NCBI GenBank assembly: GCA_964036665.1
Contig: OZ038526.1
Location: 17,608,001 to 17,672,000 of the forward strand
DNA from: Gordius sp. MW1
Lineage: Eukaryota; Nematomorpha; Gordioida; Gordea; Gordiidae
Reading direction: 5' to 3'
DNA length: 64,000 nucleotides
Part shown: piece after piece, positions 1 through 25,034 of the stretch
How the letters are laid out: the number at the start of each line of letters is the position of its first letter
How positions within the stretch are numbered: position 1 is the first letter of the stretch
Notes under the pieces: model-generated
What the model was told of the DNA's origin: nothing
The model's input: the letters and a program-made list of their open reading frames with translations, nothing else
Database searches by the model: none
Program-made: the position numbers and the translations under genes

Positions 1-243
1 ATTAATTTTTAGGTACAAGCTAGGAGGGTAAAAATGTATGTTTCATTTTTTTCTAACAACAATTGTGTTTGGTCATATCGGAAGAGATAACATTAATTTC
101 AATAAATTATTATATAATAAATGAATATTGCCAAGCGTGTTTTATTAAATTATGTGTTTATAATACCTATTAGTCCTACAGTTTTATTTTCTCTAGTTAA
201 TGCCTCACAGCATTTGATGACAAAATATAACAATTTATCGTTT

Positions 244-254
244 TTAACTAGAAT
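244..254 (-). CDS. Possible last coding exon with stop
   Basis: A strong acceptor (ATACTTCCTTTACAG) is followed in the shared frame by two Ser codons and TAA. An AATAAA polyadenylation signal follows on the same strand at about 141-146. The distance to exon 18 is about 370 nt. It is plausible as the gene end but short and unproven. Confidence 0.3.
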
Positions 255-3200
255 CTGTAAAGGAAGTATAAAAAGGAATTAAACTTTCTTAAGTAGATGA
301 ATTAAGAACTGGACAGATACTTTTAAAGCAGAGGAACGGCCAAAGTATCTAGTTCTTTTTGATGAGGAAAATATGTGTTTTTGTTTCATTAAACATTTAC
401 AATAAGTCAAATACTCATATTTTAACTTTTTATTGCTTCAACTGGTCAATATGACACAAGATATATTTTAATGTATAATAAAGCCACTAAGCGAGAAGAT
501 ATTCGCGAATTTTTGTTTTTTTAAAAGCTAAAGATGGCTTTACAATTTGTGTATTTTAGTGGTAGAAATTCTCTCGAGAAATTTTTATAGATACTTTTTT
601 ATAAGTTATCATGCCTCTTACTAAATATGAGTATCAGAAGTTTGGATTGTACACACACTTATGATTTCGATTAATTAATAAATAAACTTTATAAATTTGG
701 ATGGAGCTAGATTACTCTTATATTAATTTGTATTAATTATTTTTCTTAACATATTAGATTGAAAAAAGTTTGTCAGCATTTCCTTGCTAGTTTTGAAATT
801 TTTAACGTTATTTTATATGAATAAAAAAGTAATTAATAGTATAATCTCATCTTATCACGCACCATTACCACGAATATATTAAAATCGCAGAGAAACAGAT
901 AACTAGCTGAGGCGATAAAATTATGGCCAAAAAGATGTTTAAAGTAAGCATACATGAAATATTAATTAAAAATTTACATACAAATAAAAATTAAAGTTTT
1001 CATAAAGTTATAACCGTCAAATTTAATGATGTTTTTAATATTTTTTTTCGGCCTTAGATTTTTTGTCCTCTAACATATTCATGTGTATTTTTTAATAAAT
1101 AGGGCCTATCTTATTATGTAATATATTATTCATAGCGATTTTATTGATTTAAATATTTAGGCAGATAAAATAATTAACACATAACGTAGAAATTTGTTGC
1201 TTTAACTATCTAATACTAAAAATAGAAACATATAGCCCCAATATAGACTTTAAGGGCTCAAATTTAGCCCAAAAAATTAAAATGTCCCAGTGTAAAGCCA
1301 TACACCATATAGATTAAGATTTTTACCAGTTAAATACTGGGTTATAGTGACCATTAATAACAAGGGAGTTGTAAGGTCCAACGAGAAATCCAACATTTTA
1401 TCACGGTTTTTTGAACCTTCATACAACGAAAATGACCTAGCCAGCATCCTTCCATTAACCGTTATGAGAAGTTGGATGAAGAGAGAAAAAATTTAAAGAT
1501 TTAAAGATATTTGTAGATTTCCCAAATTAAAAAATGTCACAACAAAGTTCCTCATTAGACTTAGAATTTTTTGCTCTAGATATTAAAAAAATTAAATAAA
1601 AATTATAAAACATTGCCAATTCTAACGATAACACCTTTAAGTTAATTCATTATTTAAGATAAATTATTACTGAATATGGAGAGGCTTTGTAGTAGCTAGT
1701 GTTTGATTGAAGATTAAGAACTTGAATATTAGTGAAACATTTTGAATATAATACATTTTAAGTTCAGTATTCATTTGTTTCTAGTGGACTATTATTAAAA
1801 TTTCCACCACTATTGTTAATACTTTTTATTTATACTTGTTCTTGAAAAGAAACTTTTAATAAAGCTTTAAATCAAACCAGTTCCTATTTAAGCATGGAAC
1901 GGTAAACTGAAACTAGTTCCAATTTTAGCAACTTTAAATCTATTTTTTAACACTGCTTTTAGGGGGGGGGGGGGAAGATATGAGAATAAATTAAAAATAT
2001 TATTCACTATAATATTTATTTTGCAAACTCACAGTAATACATATCCAACAATTTAAAACGTCAGACATTATTATTATAATCAGTATAATCGTCATTTTCC
2101 TTTTTCGCTTGACGCTCTAATAATATTTAAACAGCATTTGCTTCATTAAAGAAATAATACTATTTTTACTTAAAAAATAACAAAATGATGTTTGATATCT
2201 TAAAATTAAATTAGAGTTTTAAGTAATCAATTTAAATTAAAAAGTTTATTCATATGGTACTAGGGGAGACCGGGGCTAGTCGTAGCCCGGGGTTACTATT
2301 ATCTTTGTGATTATATTTTAAAATAATAATGATATATAATTAAAATTAAAATCATATGTGTATTTTTACATAAGGTACAAGTAAAAATTTTTTTGTTTAG
2401 AAATAATAAAATTTGAATTTTTATAGAAGAAAAACGATTTTTCAGGGCTATTAGTAGCCTTCACAAAATTTTGTATTTTGCACATGTAATTTTTTGGCTT
2501 TATATTGGACTAATTTACTTTTATCTTATAGAGGGATATTTTTTATATAAAAGCCGTCTAATGATTAAATTTTTATTCGCAATATAACATGTAAAAATAT
2601 TAAATTATTATAATAATAGGGGTCGGGGCTAGTTCTAGCCATTTTTCATTTGGGTCTTACAAATGACAAAATTAAAAAAACAAAAATTTTGTTTATAATC
2701 CAACTTAGTGTAAGTTAGAATAGAAATAGACTATGATTATACATAAAAAAACGACTAAAAGTTTTTTTCCATTGCAGAAGTTTAAGTGTACTTAATTCAG
2801 ATTGTCATCTTGACCCTTTCTTATTTGTATTATATAAATTACAATCATATTAAAATTGCATTTTCTATGTTTTTTATAATTAACAATCTTTTTATTGCTG
2901 AGTTAGCATACTCTATTAAGAAGTGAAAACGTCAGGGATAATCTATCGCCTGAACAGACTATAACTAGCCCCGGGCACTTTTAAAATTTCTAGGATTTTT
3001 GATTTTTTTAAACTCAATTTATAAAAAAACTATAAGCACTTTGTTCTCAATTTTTTTTCTTATAGTAGAAATAGACTATAAAAATGTATTCTAATAAAAA
3101 AAGTATAAAAACTTTATTAGTTTTTTTTAAAGCGTGATTTAATTTTTTTAGGCCATTTAGTCCCCGGTCTCCCCTAATAATCATCTTAATAATAAACTAA

Positions 3201-6200
3201 TACCTGCATTAAGCTTTTCGTAAAATTCTAATATTAAAAAGTTATAAGTTTAAGTTCTTAATATCTTTGTTGTAACTTACTTCCGGCTTTCTCCTTGTAA
3301 AACTCTAATAATTTAATGTATCAAAATTTGTAAAATTTAACTAATAGATTACTTTCGTATTTTTTGTTGTAACCTAATATATTGGAGATGCATCATAAAA
3401 ATATACAAGGAAAAATTAACAATAAATATTATATTACTTTTGGGGTTTCTTTCATAGAGGGCACCTTTGCAAACAGTAATAAATTGCATTATTTTAATGC
3501 GATAATTTTCTCCATAGCAAATTTAATATGATAATAACACTGGTCAACAAATATCGATTTATAAAATCAACCGGCAAGGTGTTTGCAGATTCTGGTTGAG
3601 TTTTTTTTACGGTGAATCCAAATATATTTTTTTGATATATATGCTGTCAAACTTGCTAAAAATAGCGATTTTGGTAAAACGTCAATAACTTGCAAACGAA
3701 TCGGTAAAATTTTAATAAATTTGCTTTTTCTAAAGTTGTTATAGATAAAGGATCTAGTTACCCTGGACTAGATATTTTAAATAAGTTAAAATAGTTTCTT
3801 TTTCTAATAATGAATTAGTAACTGGGACTAGATACTTTTCGGCACAAGAACGGTCCAAGTTTCTAGTCTCAAACAAATTTTTTTATTTTTTGGTTTTATT
3901 TTATGGAAGGTAAAAAATATAATTATTAAGCTTATTATTCTAAAATAAGTCAAATATCTATAAATTTAAATCGAATGAAATATGGGCTGGGCCAGGCATG
4001 CAGATCTATCAGATCTTCCTATCTATAAAAGAAACTCTGCAGCAGACATCGCATTTTGAAGATATATAATGCAGAAAAAAAATGTTTTACTTTAAATTTA
4101 TAATTTAAAAAGAAAAGATTTTTAGTGGCCTTTAATCTAAAGAAAGATTCATAAAATGCTAAATAATCACTTGTAACGTGGGCGTAGCCAGCATTGAAAT
4201 TAGAGGGAGGCAATAATGATTTAGGGAGGGGCAAAATAATCATTTTTTAAATTTAGCCACAATCTTAAAATTTCAACAAATTTTTGGATCTAGAGGTTCC
4301 TTCCTTGGCTACGCCCATGACTTGTTATAGACATTTTTTTTAAACTTTGTTTCAATAATTTAAAATATAAATCAATTGCTTATACAAAGCAATCAAAATT
4401 TAGCATTTTGTTGACAAGTGTTATTGGTCAAAGCAAAGTAAGAAAATAAAAAATATGAATCAGCATAACGTAATTATTAGCTAAAATTTATGCCATAATA
4501 AAATAAACTATATAATTTTAAATCGGTACCGTTTTTCTTCGCAAATTCTTTGAATTAGGAAGAACAAACGTAAATGTATTGATTATAATTCTATGATAAT
4601 TTTATTAAAAAAACAAGTAACTTGATATACTTTTGTTAAGCGGTTCTATGTATTCTAAACGAAAAATTATGCACATTTTATTCGAATATATGAATAAATG
4701 TAATTGCATATCAAATATAAAATTTGAATATAATTACAAATTATGGCTAATATTGGTCATTTAGTAGCATAGCATATTTTTAGCTGGTAGTGTTTTTTTT
4801 TATAATATCATGAGGTTTTTTCCTTTAACAAATTAGTGCTCCAATATCTCAACAACCACAATAAATATATATTAGTGGGTGTGCTAATAATATTAACCAG
4901 GATTGAATCCTTGCTCTAATGACATATCTATTATTTTGACGGGGGAAAGACAGATTAAAAATTGTATGCAAAATGATTAAGAACGACAAGATCTTATTTG
5001 TTTAAATTCTGTATTCAAACATTTTATAATTTGTATTATCTTTTCTTTAAATTTGAAACAAAACAGCGAAAAAATTTTTATAAACCAATTCATAGCAAAT
5101 TTAAATTTACATCTGACTAAATTTGCAAAATGGATAAATTAACCAAAATTTGTAAGATTATAATATAGGGACGTGCTTGGTGTTTAAGGCGTATTGCCTA
5201 AACTATTATTATATTGCAAACAAATAGAAATACACTTTGGTTAATTATGGGGTGCCAGTACCTTGAATTAAAAAATAACACTAACCAGCGCGGCCAGGAT
5301 TTTCTCAAGGGGGAGGAAAAATTCAAAAAAATTTTCGACACTTTTATTTAATATAATGTAACAAAAATAAACTTAGCGTACAATAGGTATATGCGAAACT
5401 TCAAGGCGCTATATAACCAGCTTTGGAAGCTCTTCTCTTCATTAATCAGAGCATTTACTATCGCTTTTATACCTTAAAAATGGACATGAACCTTATGCAA
5501 GTTATTCAACTGGCAGAAAATATTATCATTTAGGTAAAATTAAATAATGGCGGAAACCAAAGCAAAATTTTACGAGTTTGATCTGAAAAAATTCTCAAGT
5601 TGCTAAAAAGCAAAATTTTACACTCACTCAAACTGTTTACTTGACATTTTTTAGTACAGCTAAATGAAGGGTGTTTAGATAAAAAAAACAAGTTTTTCAT
5701 AATTTACAATCAATGGTGGAAATTATATTGGTGGGGTGCAAGCCTTTAGTCGAAAATTAAATTCGAAAAATTGAATAACTTACTTGCAAACTTTTTATCC
5801 GCCACTATAATAAAAATATACGTACATCAAAAGTTTGCAAATACAAACTTTTAGGGCACGAATCGGCCCGTACTGAAAGTGTTATATTTTTTGGCCCAAC
5901 TTGACCCGCCTGCCTATCCTACCCGGCCGTGCCCGTCCAAATTAAAAAATGTTCCAAATTATATAAAACAAATAGTGTACAGATACAGACATACTTTGTA
6001 TTGCCAATATATGCATCATATATAACTTTTCAAGGGAAGATGAAATAAGTCATTCACATCGGGATTCAAACGAACACCCTTTTAAAAAAATCCCGAGCTC
6101 AAATTTAAAATGAAATAGTTTAAGTAGGATGTAAACATGTTTATATCGACTCGGCCTGAATATTTTATTTTTACTTATGTTGTTGGACATTAGCCGCCCC

Positions 6201-9200
6201 TGCAAGTGTCTATATATCAAGTCTATTACATATTTCTTATTATTAAGGCATCAAATTCATAATAAATTTATTATTAAATTCAGGTTGAAATACTTATAAT
6301 CATAGATTAATAAAACCATAGACTGCCGAACAGCTGATTTTACAATTAAAATCATTCAAACACCAAAATAGCTGCCATATTGTAGGATAAACTCAACAAC
6401 AGATATGTTTATACTTCTCCACGATAAAATATTGAAAAAACCAAATAAGACTAAGAGCTTAATTTATAATTAAAAAAAATAAGTAAACTAGAACAATAAA
6501 TTATGTTGAATTCTATTGTTTTTGCAATTTCCCACAAAATGGCGCTTGCTATATTTGCTCAAAATGTATCAGCTGTTCGGCAGTCTATGGTTTTATTAGT
6601 CTATGCTATACTTATAATATAAAGAGAGGTTAAATGGATAAAAGGTGACTTGACATATTATAAGGAGCATATTTGGGCCCAGTCAGGCACATCTAAATTA
6701 AAATATGCGTTTGAGTCGGGAACGCGCCGGAATGCAAACCTCTGTTTATTAAATTATGGATTGTTCTTACCCTTTTGATCTCTTTCTTGCTCCTTTTGTT
6801 GCCCTGGTAAAATATAAGGTTACAATTACAAACTAAGAACGTGTAAGGTATTTGTATTTATAAATTCTTCATTAGAGTTTACTTCTTGCCAGTGCCTTTT
6901 CTCGTTCTTTGTTTTCTTGTTCAATTAGAAAATTTTCATACCGTTCTAATATTAGATATTAGATTTACTATTTGCCTAGAAAAATATTCTGCGATTATGT
7001 CATGGTAAAAGCCCCATTGTTGAAAAAATCTTTATTTCAGCGTTTATTATCACTAATTTCAATAACAATATTCTTTAATATATTCATAGCTCCTATTTTT
7101 CCCGCCCATTAATTTTTAATTCAAATTTGTAGGTTGCAATAAATTTAAGGCCAAAGCTAATATTAAACCATTTGAAACCTTTGATATTTTTTTCGCCAAT
7201 ATCTTTTTTGTTTAGACCTTTATAACTCTTACCACTGATTTTAAGGGAAGTCCAGCCACTATAAACTCACCTTAATTTTTATCCGTAGATCACTTTTGAA
7301 TTTGTCAAAACTTTTAATGCTGACAGGAAGAACATAAATTAAGAATTACATTTTAACTTGAGGGGAAAATGATCTATAATATAATTTTTTGTATCGCAAA
7401 TTAATCAAAAAAGCTAAATGATAATTATTATGTGCAATTATCAGATTTATTCAACATTTAGTATTTCTAGCAACTTCAAAGCTTAAATCTCAATTTTTAT
7501 AAATTAATATATTGTTGTTTAAAAGTGTATTATGAATGAAAATATTAAATTTTAACTCATATCTTAATTTTGTTTGTCAGAGTAAGTTCTTAAACATTGC
7601 ATCAACCCACCGTAAGAGCTATAATTAAATTATGAATAATAATAATGCTAACGAAATCTTAATAATATAATTTATATGAGAGGGATTTTCATTTACATTT
7701 GAGAAATTTATAATATTATTATGCCAAATTAGGGTCTTTTTATTTTATTTCAAAAATCATTTTATTTATTTTAAAAGTCATAAAGAATGAAGTTAACCGG
7801 AATTATTTTAAAACAGCTTCCAAATTAATGTTGTTTAAGCTAATCGACTGATGCGCGTGAAAATTAAACATTATATAATATTCAGTTAAACTTACGTCTT
7901 CTCGAAATGGGTGAAACGGGGGTTGTATTGATATTTGACTCTTTGATTATGCCTTTGATTGTCTCTACTTTGCCATTATTTGATGTGATGTTATTATTTC
8001 CCTCAAAACCGACTAAAACAAAATTAAAATTTGTACATATAAAAATGTTGGTATGACTCCCCAGATTTATAATAAAAAAGCTTATTTGTTATATTTAGCT
8101 TAATATTTTTCATAAGGGTAGCCAGGGGCATAAAGAAAAAAAATAGGAGAAATTTATTCCCCTCCCCAGATTTATTATTGAACCTTTTGTCCCGTCATGG
8201 AGGGGGGGGGCGAGTGAAGAAGAGTAGTTTTATATACAGAAAAAGTTTTATATAAATATTGCAAATATAAGAGATTATTTTTTTGCAATATATATCAGTT
8301 GCTATGCAATATTATATAATTCTCCTATTTGATCGAAATATTATGGAAGCCGTCCTATTTAATTTCCCGGTCCTTTTCCTAAAATAAGATTTCGACCTAT
8401 GTTAAAAAATAGTATATTTGTTTTAGTGGCTAGTAATTATTAAAAACTTTGTTAATATACAACAAGGTGTATAAGTTTAATTTGAAATTAATTAGTAAAT
8501 TGCGGATTTGTTAATATTTTCAAGAAGATAATAATACCCTCTTTTAGGAGTGCCGCAATTAAATTAAAAGTATACTCTAATTAGCGCCATCTATAGGCAA
8601 TTTTAATTAGAGACTAATTTGACTATTTATATCCCAATCTTTTTTAGTTGATTAAGTCGAGAGAAAGAATAGTGTACCAGAACTCAAAGTTGCATTGGTG
8701 CCTTACAATCGTTTAATGAAATTCTGAGAGGTCTGAATTTTTAAGTGTTTTATGAAATCATTAAAGGTTTTTTGTTACTAACCACTAAAGATATGTGAAC
8801 CTTCTGTTATCTAAAAAACACTCGCTTGAAGTAGCAGTAAATATAAAAAATGTCAATGAAATATTTCATTCAGAGACTACTAACACTACCAACGACGGTT
8901 CTAAGTCCGTGTGCAAAACGTTGAGGGTGGCATCAGATCGAAAGCCGGCTTTAAAAATCTACTTCGATAGTTTCAAACAAAACTTTACAGCAGAAAGCTA
9001 GGGCGTCTCAAACGACGCGCACTGCCTACCCCGCCCGTGCAATGTGAAAAATACACTAGGGTTACCGTTTGATTTACAACAAATGCGGTCAGGAAAATAG
9101 TTATGGACAGAATGCAAAACGTGCTGGAATATGGTCACGTTGACGGGAAAGAGCATTAAAGTCGCACAAATGCCTAAAAAACTAAAGGTACACATCGCCT

Positions 9201-12200
9201 GCATACAAGAGACGAGGTGGAACGGAACTTAAGCTAGGGGGAGTCATCAAATCAAAAAAACGGGGTTTTTATAATTCTAAGCGAATCGTTCAAGGACAAG
9301 GAGGTGGAAGTCAAGCCTTCTTCAGACAGTTTAATATAAATGTAATTTGCAGATCAAGGAGGTCTCAAATTGGGTGTGTGGATACACAGAAAGACATGGC
9401 CTTCGATTCACTGGAGAAGGAAATACAAGGAAGAGGACAGGAAGAAAGGCTAATTATCTCGGCGAGCTTCAACGCCCACGAAGGGAAAGATCGCCTCGGG
9501 TATGAACGAAATCATGGATCTATGGGCATGGCCTGAAGAACACAGAAGGGGAAAAATTTCTGCAAGTATCCCAACCATACGACATAACTATCGTTAACAC
9601 GTATTTTCAAAACCGTAAAAATCATGTGGTGACTTATAAAAGTGGGAAGCGTTTAGTCAAAAATTTGCTCATGCGGCGAAAAAGTTAGAGGATTAAGGAT
9701 TGCAAAGTAATACCAGGAGAAGAAATCGCCAGGCGACATCATCCACTTGTTATGGATTTTGAAGGAAAACTATTTCCCGAAAAAGGCAATGTATATGAAC
9801 CTCGAATTCGACACGAAAAGCTGAAGGAAGCCTCAATACTCTTTAGTGCCAGAAACTGGAAAGGGACGTAGACGACGATTGATACGCTATTGCAAAAGTA
9901 AAAAACGATTCAGATACTAGGACAAAAGGAGCCAAAGCTCTAAAAAGAATACTAGTTCGGGATTTCATCTAAAAAACTAAAAATCCCTATAATTTGGTGA
10001 CTAAAATCAAAAAAGTTGGAGGAATCTTAAGAATAGAGAGGCAAAGAGAGCCGCGATGAAGGCCGTTCCAATAACGAAACTGCGTTCACCTAAATGCCAA
10101 ACAAACTCTGTCCTAAAGGAGAAAGGCTTATATACAAATTGGCCAAAATAAGGGAGAAGAAAAGTCCCGTAGGAGTCGTTAAAATAGTCAAAAATGAGAA
10201 GAATCAAACTTTATTCGTGCTAAAGGAGATGATGGAAAGGTGGAATAGATATTTAAAGAGTTTATGAGTATAGAAAATGACTAAGATTCCCTCCAGATAT
10301 TGTGCCAAACATAAGTATGGTCGAACTCTTTTAGGAGGACGATTTAGGATACAAATGAACATGTGGCAAAAAGGAAATGCAAATGGCTCAGATGGAATTC
10401 ATATGGAAGCATAGGTCCAAGGCTGTGAAAATGGGGTCACGGCCATGACAAAACTCTCTAACAAGATATTGGTAAAAGCGCGAATTCCTAATCAACAGTT
10501 AGAAAGCTCGATTATATCCCTAAATAAAGATAAAAGAAACCCTTAGGAGTGTGGCAATTACAGAGGTATCAAACCAACTTGCCACTCCTTGATGCTTATG
10601 GAAAGAATTTTAGTAGGAAGGCTGAAAAACGAGGTGGAAATATCAACTAGCCAATTCGGTTTGTGGCCGACAAATCCACAATTGAACTAAGACAGATGGG
10701 TAAAAATGAAGAGAGAAGAGACTTTCATATGGTCTTTATCTACTTGGACAAAGCTAATTTCCCGCGCGATTTTAAATGGTGGCGCTGAAAATTAAATATT
10801 CCTGACTCATACGTACTGTTTATAATGCGTTCGAACTTACTCTAAACCTTTTCTGGTTGAAATTCAATTCAATCAATGATCTGCTCTAAGTTTCTATTTA
10901 TTCATTATATTTATGGAATGAAAAAGACATTCAAAAGCCATCGCCATAATGTATGCAATATGCCGATGATTAGCTATTTTACGAAGAGACAATAGATAAT
11001 GTATTCGAAGAAGGCTAAAAGTGGTCAATATGGTTCAAAGGTCAGCAATCAAAAAAACTTATACGTGAAGATGTGCATTACAAGTGGCCCATCGTTAAAT
11101 GACCATCTATAGAACTCAAAAACATATCCATCAAGAGGGACGTTGCGCAACTGACAACAATGCCCGGATCCAAAAAGGATGGTTCAAATGGGGAATCATA
11201 TCCGTTGTGCGACAAGAAAATGCCAACATGGTTGAAGAGCAAAGCTTACAAATCCACCGTAAGAGGGTGTTACTCTATAGAAGTGTAACATGGGTAACGT
11301 CACAGGAGAAAAGTTATTGCAGGGCACAGGATAATATGTTGAAGTTTGGGCATTTAAGCTCGATCATATGACGAATGACTTTCTCAGGACAAAATTGCCA
11401 GCCTATGGCCGACTTAAAAAACGAAAATCGGCTAAGGTGTATGGGTATATATATACTAAGGGAGACGAATGATTTAAATCGAAAAATACTGATCATGGAC
11501 GTACCCGGGATCAAAGGGACACGACGATCTCGTATCACCCACGGCAAGTGGACAAAGTATAAAATAAGAAAATTAATCAAGACATGGCCTATACCCGATC
11601 ATAATGGAAGAAGCTCATCAAAACAAACCCCACGACTATGGGGCCAAATACTTAATAAAGAAGAAGAGAAGATAGATTATTTTTTCACTATTCTATTATA
11701 TTTAAGAAGATTTTTTACCTAATTTTGATTATTTATCAAGGATTTTAATCCATATAAAAAATCGTTGTAAAACATTTTGTAATAGTCTACAACTGATAAG
11801 GATGGCGAAACTTTGTCTATTAATCTATAGCTATTTTTTATTTATCAGTGATTTTTGATGTTAGAAAAGTTTTACAAAAAGGGACGAAAAAGACCTGGAT
11901 ACAAAATTTAATTAGCATTGTAATTAGGTCGAATAACATTTATCTTTTATATAAGGGGCTAACCCTGAAGCTAGTACTTTTAATATTATTACTAACGCCT
12001 AAAATATAGTATAATTTATTTGTGTCAATAACAATATTGTATGTTTCTTAAGGGCTTTGTCCTTGTTTTGCAAACAAATATTCTACTGCTCAATTGCGAG
12101 AGAATTTTTAAAATTTAACAGAAAGTTAAAAAGGAATATAATGAGTCCTGAGAATTTTTCATAACAATTAATTGCATGAATTTTTCATATTTATATGCTA

Positions 12201-15200
12201 TTGGCAAATTTATTAAAAACTTTTATAAGTTTTATGTACCACAGATCTTAAAATAACACGTTTCATGGGCTTAGCCAGCTTTGGGATTAGAGGGGGGCAA
12301 TAATGATTTAAGAATGTTTAGGGAGGGGCAAAATGATTTGAAATTTTAGCCATAATTTTAATGAATTTCAACAATTTATTGGATTTAGAGGGGGGCAGCC
12401 GCCCCTCCCTGCCCCTCCCCCCTTGGCTACGCCCATGACACGTTTTACAATTATAAGAGGAAGCGCTTACCTTACATACTTAAACAATATTGGTCCATAC
12501 TAAACTCAGCCAATTATTATCATCTATTGTACAAATATTTTGTTTTATTTTAATTGCTATAGTTGAAAAATAGGGACAACCATTGTTTTCACCGCTTATG
12601 TTATATTTAATTATTAAATTTAAATGGAAAACAACTTACGTCGCAGATAATCAGCCAAAGGCAAGTATTTGTCTAAAGCTAATGAACAGAGTTTACTTTA
12701 AACAAAATCATTATATTACCTTTTTGAAAGCCTGGAAATTTTACAACTAAAAAAAATACAAAGTTTCAATATAACCTTAAATAGTTTAAAACTTATAACA
12801 TTTTATTGTTCAAGTCTTTTAAATTATATATCTAAAACAGAAAGTAATAAAATTGCTTCACAATGCAATGTGAAAAATTCTTTCCTTTTTTGATTTTAGA
12901 AAAATTTTCATATGTAAACAAACATATATTTAGTGATATCTATATTTTTAATTGTGTGAATCTGCATAATATAGCATTTATGTTATAAATAGCGAAACAA
13001 GTTTCAAATATGCATAATGGAAAAAAATATTTGTCATTATTATGAAATGGGGAAAATGTTTGTAGTTTTTATCTAACTTTTGAAATAGTAGTGGCTAAAA
13101 ATTTATATCATTTAAAATTTTTTAGCTTATGTAAACGACTTCACACTAAAACATTACAATGATTTGAATTTTATAGGTCGGTCTTGTAGTGCCGAATATA
13201 TACCGCATCACAGTGCATATCTAGCCCTAGAGTTGTTAAATTGCTAACTTTCTTCAACTCCAGCAACCATCTGCTCGAGTTTCTGCTCGGCCCTCGAGCA
13301 TTTTTATATTCTACTGTTCTGCCTAGTGCACCGAACAGCGAGCACATATTGTGCTAACGCGCATAAGCAACTCAGTGTGCGTGCTCGCGTCTGGAGTTTA
13401 AAGAAAGTTAGCAATTTAACAACTCTAGCTAGCCCAGTGAAAAAATTAAATTGCATACAAATGTAAAAAATAAATTGATTTATTCTTACATGATCGCTTT
13501 GCTGAGTCCCTTATTATATCTTATAATGAAAAAAACATACATTTAAATATATTTATATATTAAGATAAATAGATTTATCAAATCAAATATTTTGTTAACT
13601 GATAAATGTCAAATTTTTTATTTTAACATAGTAGCATTCCTTTATAACAGTGTCATGTTTGTCTTAAGTTAAATTAACTATTGTTGATTTCCCGTTTAAA
13701 TGTAATCAATGGCGTAGGCAGGATTGCTTAAAGGGTGGGTATTCCAATTTATTTAATAAATATTTCAATTAAACATAAAATGCTTATTTACATCGATAGC
13801 GTAGGCAGGATTACTTAAAAATGAGAGGAGGGGGTTTTGTGTCAAAAAATTTCAATTTATATATAATACATTCAAATATCTACGATACGTCTTTGATAAA
13901 AAAATGCAACAATATTGTTGTGGGTTTAATGCTCTGCAACCCAACTTCTTACCCCCCCCCCCCCCCCTTTCCTCTCTCGCTTAAGATGTGCTAGCAAGCG
14001 TAGATTATCATTTTCCCGTATACACTACACACTAACGTTTTATCACGCTGTATTACCAGAAATCATTCATTTTTCATTTATAATTTTTACTTATTTTACT
14101 CGGTTTTATATAATGCATGCTATGGCGTTTATTTTCGCATGAATAAAATCATCTTCATGTTTGGGAATTTTGATCATTATCATTCTTTTAATGTAGTTGT
14201 AAGTACATCTCAGTATTTGCTTGTATGATATTCTCTCTAGTAGGTTTGTACTTAGAAAAAGAATTAACAGATTAAAATTGTGTGAACTAATTCCATTAAT
14301 GGTCTTTCTTCTAAGGAAGCAATTTACAAAGAGTTCCTTTTATTTTTTCTGAATATGCCACCCAGAGCCATTAATTGAACTCGAGATATGCTCGGATCTT
14401 TTAGGCTTAATTGGCTCACCAGTACACAAAAAAATGGGCGCGGCCCGGTCTTGTTAAACATAAATTATAGGGCCGAGCCCGATCCTCTACTTTGTTGCAA
14501 GCCACGGGCCCAGCCCCGACCCTTCCCCAAAAAATTATATCGTGTTGTTTTTTTAATGCAACTTTACTGTCATTATTGAAACAATCATTTCTTTATATGT
14601 TGAAAATGCTCAAAATTATTATGTTAAAAAATCATCCGTCTCTAACTTATTGTAACAGCGACCCGCCGTTTCACTTCCGCTAGTAGCACTGTAACTGCGT
14701 AAAATCATTAAAGTCAAATATGATTCGAAACTTTAAGCAAAATTAATTTTACTTAGTAAAAATTACCTAGTTTTGTTAATTCTTAGCCCTTCCAAAAAAA
14801 ATTGAGATTCACTTATTTTCTAAAAATAAATGACGAGGAAAATTTTAAATTGATTAAATCATTAATGTAAGAATTAAATCTATAAGATTTGATAAACGTT
14901 CTAAAAAATACACCATTTCTAATATATTAAAATACAACTTTTTAAATAATTTTGCTGGCTTGAATCGGGCCTACTCTTAGTCCTCTTGGCTTCCTTAAAG
15001 CCCGGCCAGTAATTTTTTCCAACAAAAAGTGAATCTAAGTCCGACACGTTTATAGGCCATCCGCATGCCAAATTTTATAATTTTAACTTCGCCGATGGCA
15101 AAGATTTGTTAATTTGGCTGCGGAATCATCAGCTAAAAGCAGACTTCAAAACTTAATTTATTAAATTATGAGGATTATTAATTATTAGTTGAATTTGGTC

Positions 15201-16862
15201 ATCACTCTCCTGAAGATTTAACACATTTAGTTTATAAAGAAGAGATTTTAAAGTAAGTGTAGAAATGAGGGGCGTGAATGAAGCGTGCAAGACAGCTTTG
15301 TAAAATTATCATTTATTTTGAGTATTAATACATTATAGCAATTAATATTTTATTATTATGCTCTTCTCTAGTTTAACAATCGCAATATCTAAAAACAAGA
15401 AATCTAAAGTGAATCTAAATTAAAGCAGGTCAAACGTTTAGACAATTAATATTGACTAAAATTTAGCTTGTGTTGGCATCTCCTCTGCTATTTTAGAGAA
15501 AAAGAATTAAAATTCTTTACTTTTTAAAACTCGCCCTAGGTGCCAAATTTTTAATAAATTTTAATATACAATTAAATCGGAAATTAATTAGAGTGATTAA
15601 TTTATTTGTGTAAGTGCATCACTAACAATAGCCCTATGAATATTATTGAGTTTTGCCATATAATTAAGAAAAGGTTTGATTTTCTTTTCAAAAGGGCGAA
15701 GGGCTCTCACTCGAAAACCTGGTCCCCCCTCCCATGCCTACGCCACTGATTGTAAATGAATAACATCTTTTATGATAGCTTAGCTACACGTAAGGAGTCA
15801 TGCAAAAAGCAATACTTACAAGGAATTTGTGCCTCCAGAGAAGCTATAAATAAACAAGATATTGAGTTAATAAATTGATAGTTATATTCTTTAAGCTTAC
15901 CATTGTAGGTATGAATTACATTTTGGCCTTGGACAAACTCTAATTTTGTAAAATTACATTTTGGTTTAGGCTAACAATATAAATAATTATATATTGTATA
16001 TTTAATCCATTATTTATTGTGTATTTCTTTGTATAAAATCGGGGTTTTCCCTGATGATGGTCTATAATTGCCTGAAATATCGCGTTCCATTTCGCTCTAC
16101 TTTATCAATCCAAAATTCCCACCGATTTTATACAAAGAAATAAACAATGTAAATAGCTTACGTATAAATATCGCTTGCGGGACATCTATGATATAAGAAT
16201 TAATTAAAAAATTTTAATTATAATGTCAATTCATCTTACAAAAAAATAATAGCATGATCCTTAAAAAGATAATTTTAGATCTAAATATGTTCTTGGGCAT
16301 AGCTAGGATTTAGATTAGATTAATAAAAAGTTTTGTAATGATTCAGGGAGGCAAAGGAAGATTGTTTAAATTTTGATCAGAACTTTACTAAATATAAAAA
16401 ATGGGTTTAGGAGGGATTTGTTTTTCCTGCATTCCCCTGGCTACGCCCTTAAACGCTCAGATCTTTCTCTATAATTAGGCCTTGCAAATAATTTTTTTAT
16501 AAAATGGAAGTGTACATATTTAAAATTGATTAAAAATAATACGAATAATGCTTCAATGTCGAATATATGTTTGCTTATAATGGAAAACAATACTTTTATC
16601 TTCGTTAATCGCATCTATATTAAAATAATAAACATTACAAGTATAAAATTATTATTTATACCTATTAAGACAGCCTTCAAATCTAAAATCGAATAAAATA
16701 TAGAGATTTTCATATGCAATGTACATTTAATATATACTTTTCAATGCCGCAGCTTTTCGGGTTAAATCTAAATAAAAATATGTTATGATTGTATAATGAA
16801 AAATTAATATATTCCTTTACCTTCATCAATTTGTGGGCTTTGGCAATATACTGCCGCCAAAA
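244..16862 (-). CDS. Host gene of many microexons, all with phase-1 introns (5' end not found)
   Basis: Seen: a chain of very small exons on the minus strand, each with AG upstream and a GT donor downstream (GTAAG in seven). Eighteen candidates are 9-117 nt, total about 657 nt (219 codons), and every length is a multiple of three. Each is open when two leading bases complete the previous codon and one trailing base is left over, so every intron is phase 1. Nine exons fit without any choice of splice site. Junction codons never form a stop. The peptide is mostly hydrophilic, has two Asn-glycosylation sequons (NIT, NTT) in the longest exon and a charged middle part. Known: many phase-1 microexons typify aphid bicycle effector genes and, less closely, schistosome MEGs. 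No clear paired Cys-Tyr-Cys motif was seen, so homology is only inferred from structure. First exon and signal peptide were not located. Confidence 0.6.
622..657 (-). CDS. Candidate microexon 18 (36 nt)
   Basis: Reads CVQSKLLILIF with good donor GTAAGA but a poor acceptor (CGAAATCATAAG). It is hydrophobic and carries the second cysteine of the chain. Confidence 0.35.
658..3280 (-). other. Putative intron, AT-rich, with an inserted palindromic element
   Basis: Apart from the element at 2262-3175 and a G run near 1965, I see no exon with good splice sites. Two short stretches, near 300-350 and 1880-1920, share a degenerate motif (GAACGG...CTAGTTC) with 3770-3870 and 19225-19340, suggesting a further old repeat. 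Confidence 0.3.
2262..3175. mobile_element. Terminal-inverted-repeat element with internal GGGGCTAG palindromes
   Basis: The two ends are inverted copies of AGGGGAGACCGGGG followed by CTA/ACTA. Inside are more copies of the terminal motif: GGGGCTAGTCGTAGCCCGGGG near 2273, GGGGCTAGTTCTAGCC near 2623, and CTAGCCCCGGGC near 2965. No transposase is visible in the 914 bp, so it is non-autonomous. A short TA-type duplication is possible at the ends. Superfamily not determined. Confidence 0.55.
3281..3304 (-). CDS. Microexon 17 (24 nt)
   Basis: Reads FYKEKAG with consensus donor GTAAGT. Of several possible AG acceptors, only the one at TAAATTATTAG gives the shared phase. Confidence 0.48.
3438..3464 (-). 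CDS. Candidate microexon 16 (27 nt)
   Basis: Reads ALYERNPK between acceptor TTACTGTTTGCAAAG and donor GTAATA. Length and phase match the chain. Confidence 0.42.
3611..3655 (-). CDS. Candidate exon 15 (45 nt)
   Basis: Reads SLTAYISKKYIWIH after a good acceptor (CGCTATTTTTAG). The donor CC|GTAAAA is weak. An inner AG would give a 33-nt version in the same frame. Confidence 0.38.
3656..5573 (-). other. Putative intron, AT-rich
   Basis: Besides the hAT MITE at 4177-4319, I see only AT-rich sequence and a degenerate repeat pair near 3770-3870. Confidence 0.25.
4177..4319. mobile_element. hAT-type MITE (143 bp)
   Basis: Ends are C(G/A)TGGGCGTAGCCA and its inverse, CTTGGCTACGCCCATG. The flanks ACTTGTAA and ACTTGTTA make an 8-bp target duplication with one mismatch, as hAT elements create. 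The interior is related to the copy at 12264-12437. Confidence 0.7.
5574..5582 (-). CDS. Candidate microexon 14 (9 nt)
   Basis: Nine bases (Gln-Thr plus split codons) between acceptor GAATTTTTTCAG and donor GTAAAA. It fits length and phase, but so short a match could be chance. Confidence 0.25.
5708..5743 (-). CDS. Candidate microexon 13 (36 nt)
   Basis: Reads LHPTNIISTID after acceptor CGACTAAAG, with donor GTAAAT. Only 40 nt separate it from the preceding exon. Splice sites are moderate. Confidence 0.42.
5784..5804 (-). CDS. Microexon 12 (21 nt)
   Basis: Reads ADKKFA between a strong acceptor (ATATTTTTATTATAG) and consensus donor GTAAGT. Phase agrees without choice of sites. Confidence 0.58.
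6771..6803 (-). CDS. Microexon 11 (33 nt), charged
   Basis: Reads QQKEQERDQK between acceptor TATATTTTACCAG and donor GTAAGA. Together with the preceding exon it makes a charged stretch of about 32 residues. Confidence 0.63.
6883..6945 (-). CDS. Exon 10 (63 nt), charged
   Basis: Reads RYENFLIEQENKEREKALAR, with donor GTAAAC. The acceptor (CTAATATTAG) lacks a good pyrimidine tract. Glu/Lys/Arg density suggests a helical or coiled segment continuing into the next exon. The following intron is 79 nt. Confidence 0.63.
7896..8012 (-). CDS. Exon 9, the longest (117 nt), with two glycosylation sequons
   Basis: Open for 38 codons, starting GFEGNNNITSNNGKV and ending TTPVSPISRR, with acceptor TTTTGTTTTAG and donor GTAAGT. 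The N-I-T and N-T-T sequons would fit a secreted product, but this is inference. It is the anchor for the frame of the whole chain. Confidence 0.68.
8549..8626 (+). repeat. Short dispersed repeat, copy 1
   Basis: About 78 bp starting GGAGTGCCGC and containing TCTAATTAGCG(C/T)CATCTATAGG. It recurs on the opposite strand at 51522-51600. TCTCTAATTA arms flank the centre. No coding capacity. Confidence 0.5.
8870..11690 (+). mobile_element. Decayed RTE-clade LINE, copy 1
   Basis: Broken pieces of an RTE-type non-LTR element in order. The endonuclease shows a CIQETRWNGT-like motif near 9200 and a SESFKDKEVEVK piece near 9270. The reverse transcriptase shows CGNYRGIKPTCHSLM near 10540-10600 and QYADD near 10955-10970. 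The 3' tail domain with GIKGTRRSRITHGKW lies near 11500. Many stops and frameshifts interrupt it. The nearest parts align by eye with the copy at 62745-64000. It sits in the long intron after exon 8 and runs opposite to the gene, so insertion did not add a sense-strand polyadenylation site. Confidence 0.75.
11691..12263. other. AT-rich intron sequence
   Basis: No gene, RNA or clear repeat recognised between the LINE remnant and the hAT MITE. Confidence 0.3.
12264..12437. mobile_element. hAT-type MITE (174 bp) with perfect 8-bp target duplication
   Basis: Ends CATGGGCTTAGCCA and TTGGCTACGCCCATG are inverted. The flanking ACACGTTT is repeated exactly on both sides (12256-12263 and 12438-12445). 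The interior has G-rich then C-rich stretches and no coding capacity. Confidence 0.82.
12640..12678 (-). CDS. Microexon 8 (39 nt)
   Basis: Reads LDKYLPLADYLR, the only open frame of the three. It lies between acceptor CTGTTCATTAG and consensus donor GTAAGT. The next intron is about 4.6 kb and contains a hAT MITE and a decayed RTE LINE. Confidence 0.65.
12720..12746 (-). CDS. Microexon 7 (27 nt)
   Basis: Reads VKFPGFQK after a strong acceptor (GTATTTTTTTTAG) and before donor GTAATA. The intron to the next exon is only 41 nt, near the lower limit for animal introns. Confidence 0.55.
13228..13427. mobile_element. MITE with long terminal inverted repeats (200 bp)
   Basis: The ends are inverted copies of TAGAGTTGTTAAATTGCTAA continuing through CTTTCTT, about 30 bp in all. 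The flanks TCTAGCCC and GCTAGCCC form an 8-bp duplication with one mismatch. The interior is rich in CTCG and carries no open frame of note. hAT-like by duplication size. Confidence 0.7.
13490..13519 (-). CDS. Microexon 6 (30 nt; acceptor uncertain)
   Basis: Reads IIRDSAKRS with donor GTAAGA. I chose the acceptor after the T-rich tract (GTTTTTTTTCATTATAAG). An alternative AG inside would shorten it to a 12-nt exon in the same phase; a third AG would break the phase. The preceding intron holds a 2-kb hAT-like insertion. Confidence 0.48.
13704..15751. mobile_element. 2-kb hAT-like non-autonomous element, possibly a nest of several
   Basis: The ends are AATCAATGGCGTAGGCAGG and the inverse of AATCAGTGGCGTAGGCATGG. 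Flanking 8-mers agree at six of eight places. A second partial end (GCGTAGGCAGGATTACTTAA) lies at 13800, so nesting is likely. GC-rich patches near 14390-14520 and 14990-15010 look like another repeat. No transposase seen. Confidence 0.5.
15820..15843 (-). CDS. Microexon 5 (24 nt)
   Basis: Reads SLEAQIP between a good acceptor (TGTTTATTTATAG) and a consensus donor GTAAGT. Two bases lead and one base trails, as elsewhere in the gene. Confidence 0.62.
15901..15939 (-). CDS. Microexon 4 (39 nt)
   Basis: Reads FVQGQNVIHTYN between acceptor TACAAAATTAG and donor GTAAGC. The intron that follows is only 57 nt. Phase agrees with the other exons. Confidence 0.6.
16022..16142. repeat. Inverted repeat enclosing a hammerhead-like core
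   Basis: Two perfect 21-bp arms (TATTTCTTTGTATAAAATCGG and its inverse) flank about 80 bp. Inside, CTGATGA at 16051 and GAAA at 16074 are spaced as in hammerhead ribozyme cores of Penelope-like elements and retrozymes. Stem II is weak, so if this is a relic it is probably inactive. Confidence 0.4.
16162..16185 (-). CDS. Microexon 3 (24 nt)
   Basis: Reads VPQAIFI, between acceptor TTATATCATAG and donor GTAAGC. The phase fits without choosing among alternative sites. A second frame is also open across these 24 nt, so the assigned frame rests on its neighbours. Confidence 0.55.
16292..16450. mobile_element. Degraded hAT-type MITE
   Basis: CTTGGGCATAGCTAGG at one end and CCTGGCTACGCCC at the other resemble the ends of the clearer MITEs at 4177 and 12264. 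No target duplication could be matched. Confidence 0.45.
16662..16682 (-). CDS. Microexon 2 (21 nt)
   Basis: Reads LKAVLI in the shared frame. The acceptor is GATTTTAG and the donor GTATAA, which is weaker than most donors in this gene. The junction with the preceding exon makes GAT (Asp). Confidence 0.38.
16821..16862 (-). CDS. Microexon 1 of the chain (42 nt)
   Basis: Reads LAAVYCQSPQIDE in the shared frame, flanked by ATTCGTAG and GTAAAG. An AG 14 bases further upstream would bring an in-frame stop, so the nearer acceptor was chosen. It is the most 5' exon I can support; earlier exons must exist. Confidence 0.5.
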
Positions 16863-19350
16863 CTACGAATATCTAGAATTAGAATCATTAATTAGTTTTT
16901 ATCAAAAATATTGTGGATCAAAGATAGCTTGATTTAGTTCATAAGGTTCAGAGTTTAATTAAAGAAATAATGTTTTAATGTAACACAGAATCGAATAGGT
17001 TTAGCTAGAATAATAGTCAGTTAAAAGATTTAATATTTCGATCAGAAGTCAGCGTTTTTTAAATTTTTTGCCAGTACCTTGCACAGTTTTATAGCTTAAT
17101 TTTCTCCCCTTCCCCCCAATGCCTGCCTGAACCCTTCTATATGTCTACCCGGCCATGCACAAATTAAAGCTGCCCAATGTGCTCGGCCGGTATTAATATA
17201 TTTGCACTTCAGCCCTGAATGGCGTCAAATTTTTTGAGACAAATTTTAAAAAATAAACTTTACGTAATTGACATTCTAATTGAAACAAAGCTAATAATCA
17301 AATTTCGGTAATTATTAACTGAATCACCAAATTTATGGTCAGCCTCAGCACTCCATCAGCCAATCAAAATCATTAATGGCTAGGGTTAATAATATTATAT
17401 TATCTGATCAGAGCCCTGCACGGACGGCCCAAAGCCTAACCTATCCAAGCCAGGCCCCAAAAATATTGCGAGTTGGACTCGAGTAAATTTTAAAAAAATT
17501 GGGCCTCGAGCTAGGGAAGTCAGATAGGGCAGGGTGACCCGAGGCCTCAGGCGGGCCCGAATTAATTCCAGGCAAATAATTGTTTATAAAATATAAACAT
17601 GATATAAAAAACATATTTGCGTAAGCTTACATTATACAGCTTTCAAACTCTACTCTCTTCTGTCAATAATAATAATTTTTTATATCCGTATTAGGTATAA
17701 TTTTAAAAAAGACTAAATTAATAATTTACAGAGCTCCTATTTTTTCTTAATTATTCGATTAATATTTATCTTTTTTACGTTTGTTAATTACGTTAGTTTA
17801 TTTTATATTGTATATTTTAAGGATGTGAAAAAGAATCGCATTATTAAAAACGACTTCAAAATATCCAAAACTTCATTAATAGGATCAAATGTTTTAGTGT
17901 ATTAATTTAATTTAAATAAAGTCATAGGCGTAGCCAGGGGGCGGGGCAGCCAATTTACGAAAAAAAAATTTCAATGCAAAAACTTTGAAAATTAAAAAAA
18001 AATTTGTTTTGCCCCCCTCTAATTAAACTTTTAAGCGTTTTGCCCCCCCCCCCCCTTCTAATTCAAAACCTGGCTACGCCCATGTGAAGATAATTTTCCA
18101 CACAAAAAAATCGTATGAAAAAATTTTTTTCCATAATGTTTATACAATATAATTCAACTATAACAATTTATTAAAAAAATATTATCAAACTGATCCACGC
18201 AGGAAAAATATCTAAGCTAAATTTTATATTATAACTTGCTTTTAAGTGTAATTAACTTATTGATAAAATTAAGCATATTTCGTTAATGTAAAAGCGCGTC
18301 TTTAGCTATGAAATTAGAATTTCTATGCAAAATATTTGTTCAAAAACTAATAGCTCGCTATAGATAGGCTTATAAATAATAAAGATGAGATGAATTTATA
18401 AATAAATTATAATGTTGTATTGTCTACAATATATGATTATTAATTGGAACCTATTTAAACCATAAATTGCATAGCAATTAAAACTATTATAAGTTAATGC
18501 ATATATGTTAGAGTAAAAGATAATAAAAAAAAATAAGTATAAAAAGAAGTAATAATTTTATTCATACAAATCCACTCGTTATGAATAAAGAATGCATTTA
18601 AATAGAATCCGATAAAATATATGAAATAACTCAATTTAAAAGAATTCGTCTAGTTCAAAAATTTATTAATGCAATAAATAGCCTCGGGATCTTAATTTTA
18701 CAAAGATGTTTGAGACTTAGTCTAGTCTCCTATACACATAAGCTCCTTATCATCTTTGAGTAATGCTTTGTTAATTTTCTTAACTACAAAATATTCTTTT
18801 ATAAACTGTGTCAATTTTCAGCATTTTGCTTGGTAACTTGCTTTATAAAAAAAGGTTTTTAATTAAATGCATCCATATAAAAAATTAACAAAACACTCAC
18901 ATGAAGAAATCGAAAGCTGATTTCATGGTAAATTCCATCTGTACTAAAATATTAGATGGAAAGAAGCATCATAGTTAGATTAAAACTTATCTTGCTTTTA
19001 CATAAACCCTATAAAATTGCTAAGTAAAGAGGCTAACGCTTTTTGTAAGAAAATACCACTTTTATTTAAAATAAGGGGGGAATCCATTTTAAAAAGGACC
19101 GTGAAAAGAAATCTGGTTTATAGTATTTAAAGCGACATAAACATTATATCGCTTAAACATTTTATCGCTTAAACATTTTAAAAAAATTAAAATTTAAATT
19201 GAAAAAAAAACATAATAAATTTTTTGGTTATGGACTTGGACCGGCTTTGTAATTACCGCTACCTGAGTCTAGTTAAACGGAAAATTATTATAACGAGCGG
19301 GCCGATTAACCTAACGGCCGTTTAAGGTTTCTAGTCCACATATCTCAACT
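16863..19350. other. AT-rich stretch without recognised exons
   Basis: I looked here for the missing 5' exons of the microexon gene. No exon fits the shared phase. It contains a hAT-type MITE at 17923-18084 and GC-rich patches (CCCGGCC, GGGCCTCGAG) at 17140-17200 and 17405-17560 that look like decayed transposon ends. Confidence 0.3.
17923..18084. mobile_element. hAT-type MITE, no clear target duplication
   Basis: CATAGGCGTAGCCAGG and CCTGGCTACGCCCATG form inverted ends. The interior has the usual long G or C runs. Flanking 8-mers do not match. Confidence 0.5.
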
Positions 19351-20895
19351 AAGTATAAAAAAAAAGTAGCATGCAATGCAGAAGCAAACCCTAAATGCAT
19401 CTTGTGGTACCTAGACGATGGTACCATCAAAGGAAATGCCGAAGACGTCAAAGAAGCCCTCTCATATCTAGAAGTTGAAGCTTCAAAAATTGGTCTCCAT
19501 CTAAATCATAGCAAGACCGAGGTTTGCAAAAACAATACTGACCCTATAAGCCTAGACCCATACTTTGACGCTTTCAAACATATTCACCCTAACGAACTAA
19601 CGCACTTAGGATCTCCCATAGGTGGCTCACACCTTTGTAACAAGTTATTAACAGAGACAATACAAAAACTAGTAGAAATCAAACCCCTTTTTTCTTACAT
19701 GCCAGCCCACCAGGCTTTCTTTTTAATTAAAAACTGCTATTCTTTACCTAAGATAAATTATATCTTCAGGTCATCCACCTCATTTTTAAATTCCAGTGCT
19801 CTATCTATATTCGACCAAAAACTCAAAGATGTAGTCGAGGAAATCACAAACCTTTCTTTTACAGGGTCCCAATGGAAACAAGCGTGTCTCCCCACAAAAT
19901 ATGGTGGTTTGGGCCTGAGATCACCCTCTCTAGTAGCATTGTCGGCCTTCATCTCGAGTCGACTTTCAGCCAAACTAATCATCGACAAAATAATCGATCA
20001 ACCAGATCCTTCCACCCAAATCGCTCTCGACATGTGGAGCTCTTTGTCCGACCCTAACACTCCATTCCCTACCATAAACTCTCAAAAAAGTTGGAACACT
20101 TCTCTCTACGACCATGCCCTTAAAACTCTTATTTCGGGCGCATCGTTTGAGGAGTTACTAGCTTTAAGAAGTTTTGCATCAAGGTCAGGCCACGAGTGGT
20201 TGGAGGCCATCCCAAGTCGGACTCATGACCTTCAACTCTCTAACAACGAGTTCAGGATTGCAGCAGGGCTCCGCCTAGGATGTGATATAGTTGCCTCTCA
20301 TCAATGCAACTTATGTGGCTCATCTGTTGGTACAAAAGGCCACCACGGCCTGCATTGCAAATTTAACAAGGCCAGATTTCTACGGCACACATCTGTTAAT
20401 GCTCTTCTACAGAAGACATTCAAAAAGGCGGGCTTTCCCTCCCAATTGGAGCCAAATGGTCTTTGCCTTCGCGACAAGAAGAGACCTGATGGACAGACCT
20501 CCATCCCATGGGCAAAAGGGCTATGCCTAGCTTGGGACTACACCTGTCCGGATGCCTTTGCTCCCTCAAACCATAACAAAGACCCCCTCGTTGATTCTGA
20601 AAGATTAAAGTCCGCTAAATACGCAGAACTTAATTCCTCACTACTTTTCTCCCCCATAGTGACCACCACTCTTACAACAATAGGTCCTAAAACCCAAGCC
20701 CTTATGAAAGAATTGGGACGCCGTATAGCTGCCAATACCCTTGACAATAGGGAAACATTTTTCATTAAACAGAAAATCGGAATCATTATTTGTCATTTCA
20801 ACGCTATCGCAATTTTCGAATGTTTACCTCGCATATAATTTTTATAGTTTTCTATGGTTTCATTTAATAAAAATTGATTAAAAAAAAAATTTTAT
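19350..20895 (+). mobile_element. 5'-truncated LINE with nuclease-like C-terminus, copy 1
   Basis: Only the 3' part of the element is present. It starts shortly before the reverse transcriptase YLDDG and ends with an A-rich tail after the stop (about 20870-20895). The reading frame is intact, so it is fairly young. A homologous, more damaged copy lies at 55050-56300 on the minus strand. Confidence 0.75.
19402..20838 (+). CDS. LINE reverse transcriptase end, CCHC knuckle and endonuclease-like domain (fragment)
   Basis: The open frame of 478 codons starts at the first ATG but is open back to about 19357, so the true N-terminus is lost. WYLDDGT at residues 2-8 is the reverse transcriptase catalytic motif; the thumb region follows (GLHLNHSKTE). 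A C-x2-C-x8-H-x4-C knuckle lies near residues 303-320 and RPD-x15-D (ending WDYT) near 362-380. Known: R2/CRE/NeSL-type LINEs carry a CCHC knuckle of this spacing followed by a restriction-like endonuclease with an R/KPD motif. Those enzymes cut target DNA for integration. Clade assignment here is inference, and the YLDDG box is unusual for them. The protein would act on LINE RNA, not for the host. Confidence 0.72.
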   Translation: MWYLDDGTIKGNAEDVKEALSYLEVEASKIGLHLNHSKTEVCKNNTDPISLDPYFDAFKHIHPNELTHLGSPIGGSHLCNKLLTETIQKLVEIKPLFSYMPAHQAFFLIKNCYSLPKINYIFRSSTSFLNSSALSIFDQKLKDVVEEITNLSFTGSQWKQACLPTKYGGLGLRSPSLVALSAFISSRLSAKLIIDKIIDQPDPSTQIALDMWSSLSDPNTPFPTINSQKSWNTSLYDHALKTLISGASFEELLALRSFASRSGHEWLEAIPSRTHDLQLSNNEFRIAAGLRLGCDIVASHQCNLCGSSVGTKGHHGLHCKFNKARFLRHTSVNALLQKTFKKAGFPSQLEPNGLCLRDKKRPDGQTSIPWAKGLCLAWDYTCPDAFAPSNHNKDPLVDSERLKSAKYAELNSSLLFSPIVTTTLTTIGPKTQALMKELGRRIAANTLDNRETFFIKQKIGIIICHFNAIAIFECLPRI

Positions 20896-22580: not shown

Positions 22581-22589
22581 AACTAGTTT

Positions 22590-24978: not shown

Positions 24979-25034
24979 ATATATATTCTGCTAATACACC
25001 CGGGTAAATGGCAAAACAACGTTTGATTTTTCGT

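Follow-up and report, generated by a model that had tools for sequence, protein, structure and literature searches.

The minus strand of the window (the whole 64,000-nucleotide stretch that was analysed, positions 17608001–17672000 of contig C8 in a genome of 211.8 Mb and 12 contigs) contains, between about 2.0 and 18.6 kb, a chain of exons of 21–117 nucleotides that are compatible with each other via phase-1 introns. This chain exceeds chance expectation. It probably represents a lineage-specific, secreted microexon gene of a gordiid horsehair worm, with frame-neutral exons and a small, mostly hydrophilic product. In the predicted gene, a signal peptide split across the first two exons would lead the product into the secretory pathway, and the remainder of the protein would be spelled by at least ten, probably 14 to 17, internal exons of 21–117 nucleotides. 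The internal exons are predicted to be multiples of three placed between phase-1 introns, an arrangement that would allow skipping, duplication and addition without a frame shift and would offer a ready means of producing protein variants. We infer transcription, splicing, secretion and isoforms from the sequence. The exons are listed below in window coordinates and in the order of the gene; C5 is the contig that carries a second copy of the gene's 5' and middle portions.

18576–18597, minus strand: candidate 22-nt first exon (MHSLFIT and one further base); ATG-donor search, low to moderate confidence
16821–16862, minus strand: 42-nt exon closing the presumed signal peptide (LAAVYCQSPQIDE); splice sites retained and full codons unchanged in C5
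16738–16767, minus strand: microexon, 30 nt; splice sites and C5 copy
16662–16682, minus strand: microexon, 21 nt; splice sites and C5 copy
16594–16614, minus strand: microexon, 21 nt; splice sites and C5 copy
16162–16185, minus strand: microexon, 24 nt; scan and C5 copy
15901–15939, minus strand: possible 39-nt exon with a weak acceptor; splice sites and frame retained in C5, outside the core set
15820–15843, minus strand: microexon, 24 nt; scan and C5 copy
13490–13519, minus strand: probable microexon, 30 nt, unusual AAG acceptor; identical in C5, outside the core set of the classifier test
12720–12746, minus strand: microexon, 27 nt; scan and C5 copy
12640–12672, minus strand: microexon, 33 nt; scan and C5 copy
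7896–8012, minus strand: largest exon, 117 nt, 38 full codons; phase 1 the sole open phase, scan and C5 copy
6883–6945, minus strand: exon, 63 nt, Lys/Glu-rich; phase 1 the sole open phase, recognised with C5 in view
6771–6803, minus strand: microexon, 33 nt; scan and C5 copy
5784–5804, minus strand: microexon, 21 nt, outside the duplicated segment and without second copy; strong sites only
3353–3373, minus strand: possible microexon, 21 nt, without second copy; weak sites
3281–3304, minus strand: microexon, 24 nt, FYKEKAG, by eye resembling the exon at 3227–3204; sites only
3204–3227, minus strand: microexon, 24 nt, FYEKLNA; sites only
2061–2116, minus strand: probable terminal exon, 56 nt, stop codon TGA, with AATAAA 40 nt past the stop; from sequence
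244–254, minus strand: alternative terminal exon, from the end coordinate of the preliminary description; from sequence, AATAAA also downstream

Acceptor-donor pairs were sought on the minus strand, with a length divisible by three as a precondition of the scan; in 17 kb, 11 candidates exceed the splice-site thresholds and are open in some phase. Ten of them are open in phase 1, six in phase 0 and six in phase 2; the single candidate closed in phase 1 coincides in part with the probable terminal exon. The chain-finding scan covered 2.0–18.6 kb minus the transposon-like stretch (13.0 kb) at three thresholds, and gave 12, 10 and 8 phase-1 exons. The corresponding counts in 200 dinucleotide shuffles average 3.3, 1.9 and 1.0 and peak at 9, 6 and 5. 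At the strict threshold, 8 exons are thus to be compared with a shuffle mean of 1.0 (standard deviation 1.0, maximum 5). The opposite strand of the gene region yields 2, 1 and 0. On the gene strand the counts for phase 0 (10, 7 and 5) and phase 2 (7, 7 and 5) are raised as well, since more than one frame is commonly open in so short an exon. Expressed as a rate, strict phase-1 exons number 0.62 per kb in the gene region versus 0.10 per kb in the genome background (340.6 strand-kb). The best control stretch of 13 kb contains seven strict exons and has a score of 48, versus 56 for the gene region; it is located in the window itself, at about 39–52 kb on the plus strand. Three of its candidates duplicate three others, and one of the identical pairs sits in the repeats flanking a gypsy-type element; because of these three pairs of identical candidates, the control stretch was not taken as a gene. 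The splice-site weights represent a general metazoan consensus, not trained on this species, and single-site scores are modest. A rough look at myosin exon edges of the genome showed a few acceptors that are T-rich and end in TAG.

The preliminary description had the gene running from 16862 down to 244. A minus-strand chain is indeed present in this span, but the 3' end at 244 is doubtful, the terminal exon at 2116–2061 being the likelier one, and the gene probably starts upstream of 16862, with 18597 as one candidate. The first exon at 18597–18576 is one of nine listed by a search for an ATG, hydrophobic codons and a GT. In C5 its ATG, frame and GT are kept, with one silent change, and its donor is weak (GTGGAT). 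Four other listed candidates likewise keep the ATG, frame and GT in C5, so that the choice is based on the hydrophobic run formed with the next exon. A start of that next exon at 16872 was rejected, the acceptor before 16872 being lost in C5. The terminal exon is one of 29 terminal candidates listed, and an AATAAA after a candidate end is commonplace in DNA this AT-rich. For the exons below 5838 (5804, 3304, 3227 and 2116), which lie outside the duplication, the support consists of the splice sites. The microexons might instead be the rapidly changing portion of an ordinary, larger gene with conserved exons beyond the predicted span. Both ends are drawn from sequence and each is one of several candidates, which leaves room for such a gene; it is nonetheless quite unlikely, given that the window itself includes a candidate start with a signal peptide as well as a terminal exon followed by AATAAA, and that the 20 kb downstream contain only two strict phase-1 candidates on the gene strand.

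The predicted introns measure 47–4,627 nucleotides. Five of the 15 are 47–55 nucleotides long, and four of these five lie within the duplicated part and are 47–55 nucleotides long in C5 also; this looks like a real minimal intron size. Within predicted introns, the following elements and stretches were recognised:

2261–3177, no strand assigned: repeat element with terminal inverted repeats (18-nt arms), AGGGGAGACCGGGG inside; in a predicted intron
6301–6607, no strand assigned: repeat element of about 307 bp with inverted ends; in an intron, not present at the corresponding C5 position
8200–11800 (approximate), plus strand: decayed LINE-like element; intronic, shared by the two copies
13689–15463, no strand assigned: stretch of 1,775 bp without counterpart in the C5 copy; two of its parts are matched elsewhere on C5 at about 70%

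The element at 2261–3177 (about 920 bp) has about 40 scored copies in the genome at 81–89% identity, and the one at 6301–6607 has about 40 at 86–93%, in both cases the best of a longer list. The element at 8200–11800 is presumably LINE-like, the name being given from motifs typical of such elements. Two candidate exons fall inside it: 9173–9066, open in phase 1 and broken in C5, is false, and 11588–11505, lost in C5, was rejected. An exon seen by eye at 15132–15088 was also rejected, since its stretch is missing from the C5 copy and matches elsewhere on C5. The candidate at 3803–3762 passes the scan and was left out, as by eye it looks part of a sequence that recurs near 270–360.

Elsewhere in the window, a gypsy-type element is located on the minus strand at 44190–51060, with reverse transcriptase, RNase H and integrase pieces, a zinc knuckle, a weak protease match and a 54-bp tandem repeat that occurs near each end; one of its reverse-transcriptase pieces has 139 scored matches in the genome. 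Arrays of 107- and 129-bp units with long repetitive frames (FGQWSFFSIGQQP...) occupy 22500–34600 and 57650–61500; repeats of a similar kind are found on C5 and past the downstream end of the window. By eye, frames resembling non-LTR retrotransposons are present at 19315–20838 (plus strand), with a reverse-transcriptase match too weak for the Pfam cut-off, and at 55158–55976 (minus strand), of which 55506–55976 is without Pfam match.

Window positions 5838–19405 are duplicated at C5:20051891–20065714, with 92% identity over aligned bases. This is the one other place in the genome matched by a DNA search with the gene, the matches being on C8 and C5 only. A further DNA search returned, beyond C8 and C5, only a repeat element (best 40 of 827 candidates scored), and a search of the genome with the 38-residue exon peptide found at E <= 1 only the C8 and C5 copies. 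All 12 tested exons keep in C5 their AG, their GT and an open frame, with no indels. Control pairs of the same lengths from the same DNA, a small set with few long pairs, are intact in 17 of 52 cases (5 of 25 on the plus strand, 12 of 27 on the minus strand; Fisher P 1.6e-5 versus 12 of 12). The choice of two of the 12 exons was guided in part by C5 (16862 rather than 16872, and 6945–6883); without them ten of ten are intact (P 8e-5). Phase 1 is open in all 12 exons in both copies, phase 0 in six and phase 2 in seven, some of the 12 having been selected as open in phase 1. As C5 retains all open frames of the window copy, be it phase 1 or another, it supports the exons more than it supports their phase. 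Indels between the copies are absent from 465 nucleotides of exon versus 98 events in 5,364 nucleotides of intron (8.5 expected in the exons, P 2e-4), and four stretches of the window copy that are missing from C5, one of them a many-copy element, all fall within predicted introns.

These results bear on the possibility that the chain is a product of chance, with pairs resembling splice sites having been picked out by eye in AT-rich DNA. A simpler count of the best non-overlapping pairs is in keeping with it, showing neither an excess of multiples of three (9 of 25; length classes 9, 9 and 7) nor a phase preference (7 open in phase 0, 7 in phase 1 and 6 in phase 2), as are the modest single-site scores and the raised counts for phases 0 and 2 in the gene region. 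The enrichment of the chain, its strand bias and the conservation of sites and frames in C5 make chance very unlikely all the same, and the proposal of the preliminary description, very small minus-strand exons fitting phase 1 on entry and exit, is borne out in its core.

Below window position 5838 a DNA search found no match of the gene on C5; a search with window 2000–5900 likewise returned C8 and repeats only, with no C5 match (best 40 of 5,124 scored). The C5 copy is therefore predicted to be either cut short or furnished with other 3' exons. Just below the duplication, C5 has three strict phase-1 candidates in 16.8 kb, and diverged 3' exons may be present there. With everything below 5838 missing, the C5 copy may also be a decaying gene.

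Exons and introns diverge at similar rates between the two copies: 38 of 402 exon bases differ in 11 exons (9.5%), versus 442 of 5,474 intron bases (8.1%; P 0.34). The exon changes amount to Nd 24.5 and Sd 9.5, a dN/dS of 0.71 (the same 11 exons and 402 nucleotides). This value is near that of an unconstrained gene; it does not indicate strong constraint and does not prove positive selection. When 12 exons are taken (465 nucleotides, 45 differences), 9 of the 31 altered codons differ at two or more positions, versus 116 of 1,155 changed intron triplets in three registers (P 0.004), which is the pattern that repeated replacement of the same residues would give. Exon bases thus change at an intron-like rate, with the changes clustered within codons. 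In the 42-nucleotide signal-peptide exon, no full codon differs between the copies. The dN/dS, the numerous transposon insertions in the introns and the lack of the 3' exons in C5 would also suit a microexon gene that once worked and is now decaying, its frames being intact in both copies owing to the short time elapsed. Such decay is distinctly improbable, as the introns have accumulated the 98 indel events and 8% changes against 12 exons free of indels and stops.

MHSLFIT and the residues of the next exon (LAAVYCQSPQIDE) complete a hydrophobic start that is a plausible candidate signal peptide over two exons. After the signal region, none of the 158 full codons counted encodes cysteine, in line with the lack of an evident paired Cys-Tyr-Cys motif noted in the preliminary description, and 48% encode Lys, Arg, Asp, Glu, Asn or Gln. 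The predicted product is probably charged and disordered. Tryptophan is absent from the 17 exon peptides, in which no elastin-, silk- or collagen-like repeats were seen by eye. A Pfam search of the predicted peptide gave no match. A search for relatives among 5.8 billion proteins, with an X in the query at each junction, which reduces sensitivity, gave 54 candidates, none with E <= 1. The plausible signal peptide, the exon architecture, the lack of relatives in these searches and the replacement-rich change support the view, close to that put forward in the preliminary description, of a secreted, fast-evolving new gene with an architecture like that of bicycle genes or MEGs.

The setting of a sap-feeding insect or aphid suggested there is wrong. 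The COX1 of contig C12 reads through in the invertebrate mitochondrial code, and the encoded protein shares 96% identity with COX1 of Gordius sp. VVA-2019, 91% with Gordionus alpestris, 84% with Parachordodes pustulosus and 82% with Gordionus wolterstorffii; other matches among the 120 listed (best of 8,000 scored) are at 67–70%. With 96% identity to a Gordius species, the animal is a gordiid horsehair worm, probably Gordius, and no aphid. Gordiid horsehair worms are parasitoids of arthropods. A 4.3-kb mitochondrial locus contains perfect inverted repeats with arms of up to 108 nucleotides; on the mitochondrial contig they are found at L021:656–891 and 4092–4281, with perfect arms of 108 and 95 nucleotides. 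Comparable inverted repeats are reported in hairworm mitochondria (PMC6649704), and an assembly of Gordius aquaticus exists (PMC11603191). Nuclear copies of mitochondrial COX1 pieces are numerous (on C1, C3, C4, C5 and C8), one on C8 being nearly full length.

In PMC9168663, bicycle genes are described as fast-evolving, with numerous small internal exons whose first base falls at codon position 2, and the gene described here has all three traits in common with them: its 14 predicted core internal exons have a mean length of 36 nucleotides and all start at codon position 2. The preliminary description had proposed a check with a gene-structure classifier. With coefficients as printed in PMC9168663, the bicycle classifier gives the core set a z of 8.2, read without the cut-off of that paper and leaning towards bicycle-like because the exon set was picked for phase. 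When only the 11 internal exons above 6700 plus the first and last are used, z is 5.8; for the same exon sizes with evenly mixed phases the score would be about -24. Membership of the family does not follow from this bicycle-like structure: with no cysteine in 158 codons after the signal region, the Cys-Tyr-Cys motif is lacking, and by COX1 the animal belongs to Nematomorpha, outside the aphids, phylloxerids and coccids from which bicycle genes are reported. According to PMC9168663, putative bicycle homologues in phylloxera and coccids are also without obvious motifs, and a saposin-like fold is given as a feature of bicycle proteins in PMC13041983. Salivary-gland expression is another trait of the family. 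The bicycle genes of Hormaphis cornu and relatives have to do with a plant host, whereas the host of the hairworm, in another phylum, would be an arthropod. A classifier based on structure can thus yield a bicycle-like score in another phylum, and structure alone cannot prove homology across phyla. The classifier score notwithstanding, a true homologue of the aphid bicycle genes is exceedingly improbable, considering the different phylum, the missing cysteines and the failure to find a sequence relative.

Microexon genes (MEGs) of Schistosoma mansoni are described in PMC10526429 as encoding a signal peptide and having many very short exons, mostly multiples of three, with introns of up to several kb. 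The likeness to the hairworm gene lies in the parasitic worm and the very short multiple-of-three exons; the hairworm signal peptide is a candidate, recognised as a plausible hydrophobic start split over two predicted exons. Alternative splicing of the central exons is a further trait of MEGs. Where MEGs have 10–20 very short exons among long introns, 14 core internal exons and introns of 47–4,627 nucleotides are predicted here, an agreement that is partly built in with regard to exon length, multiples of three having been a precondition of the scan. The hydrophobic or aromatic motif with Trp that follows the signal peptide of MEGs, according to PMC10526429, has no counterpart in the Trp-free exon peptides, and the lineage is nematomorph, not trematode. 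There are 35 MEGs with exons of 6–81 nucleotides, whereas one hairworm gene and one partial copy were found, with exons of 21–117 nucleotides. In its architecture, the predicted hairworm gene appears convergent with bicycle genes and MEGs, and we do not file it with either family. No paper on microexon genes in hairworms was found among the top-ranked open-licence papers of the literature searches, one of them a weak search whose ranking favoured papers rich in hairworm words.

Vertebrate elastin and other matrix genes also have small, symmetrical phase-1 exons and secreted products. Symmetrical exons of the 1-1 phase class and secretion, the latter presumed here, are common to these and the hairworm gene, but elastin-type proteins have hydrophobic and cross-linking repeats, of which none were seen by eye in the hairworm exon peptides. 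A real secreted microexon gene could accordingly serve a structural or glandular purpose of the worm (cuticle, egg-string glue or matrix) without any interaction with the host. The charged exons, the lack of cysteine in 158 codons and the symmetrical phase-1 exons would be as apt for a disordered extracellular protein as for an effector. We regard this role as somewhat unlikely, as repeats of the elastin, silk or collagen type were not seen and the clustered replacements fit an arms race somewhat better.

For the secreted microexon gene that we favour, a product released by the parasite and acting at the interface with its arthropod host is a tentative reading, a guess made from the lifestyle, the presumed signal peptide and the tempo of change. 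If the gene is transcribed, gordiid horsehair worms would be a third animal lineage with a secreted gene built of frame-neutral microexons, and it would become testable whether parasitism repeatedly favours the microexon design. Outside insects, we know of no other lineage of Ecdysozoa with such a gene. A bolder version, and an unlikely one, is that horsehair worms have evolved microexon effector genes of their own, independently of flukes and aphids and seen here for the first time, and that these would form an exon kit for ever-changing secreted proteins used on the host, perhaps behind the change in its behaviour. The mechanism by which hairworms induce such behaviour change is described as largely unknown in PMC12456768, and homology searches are poorly suited to detecting such genes; for these reasons a candidate gene would be useful.
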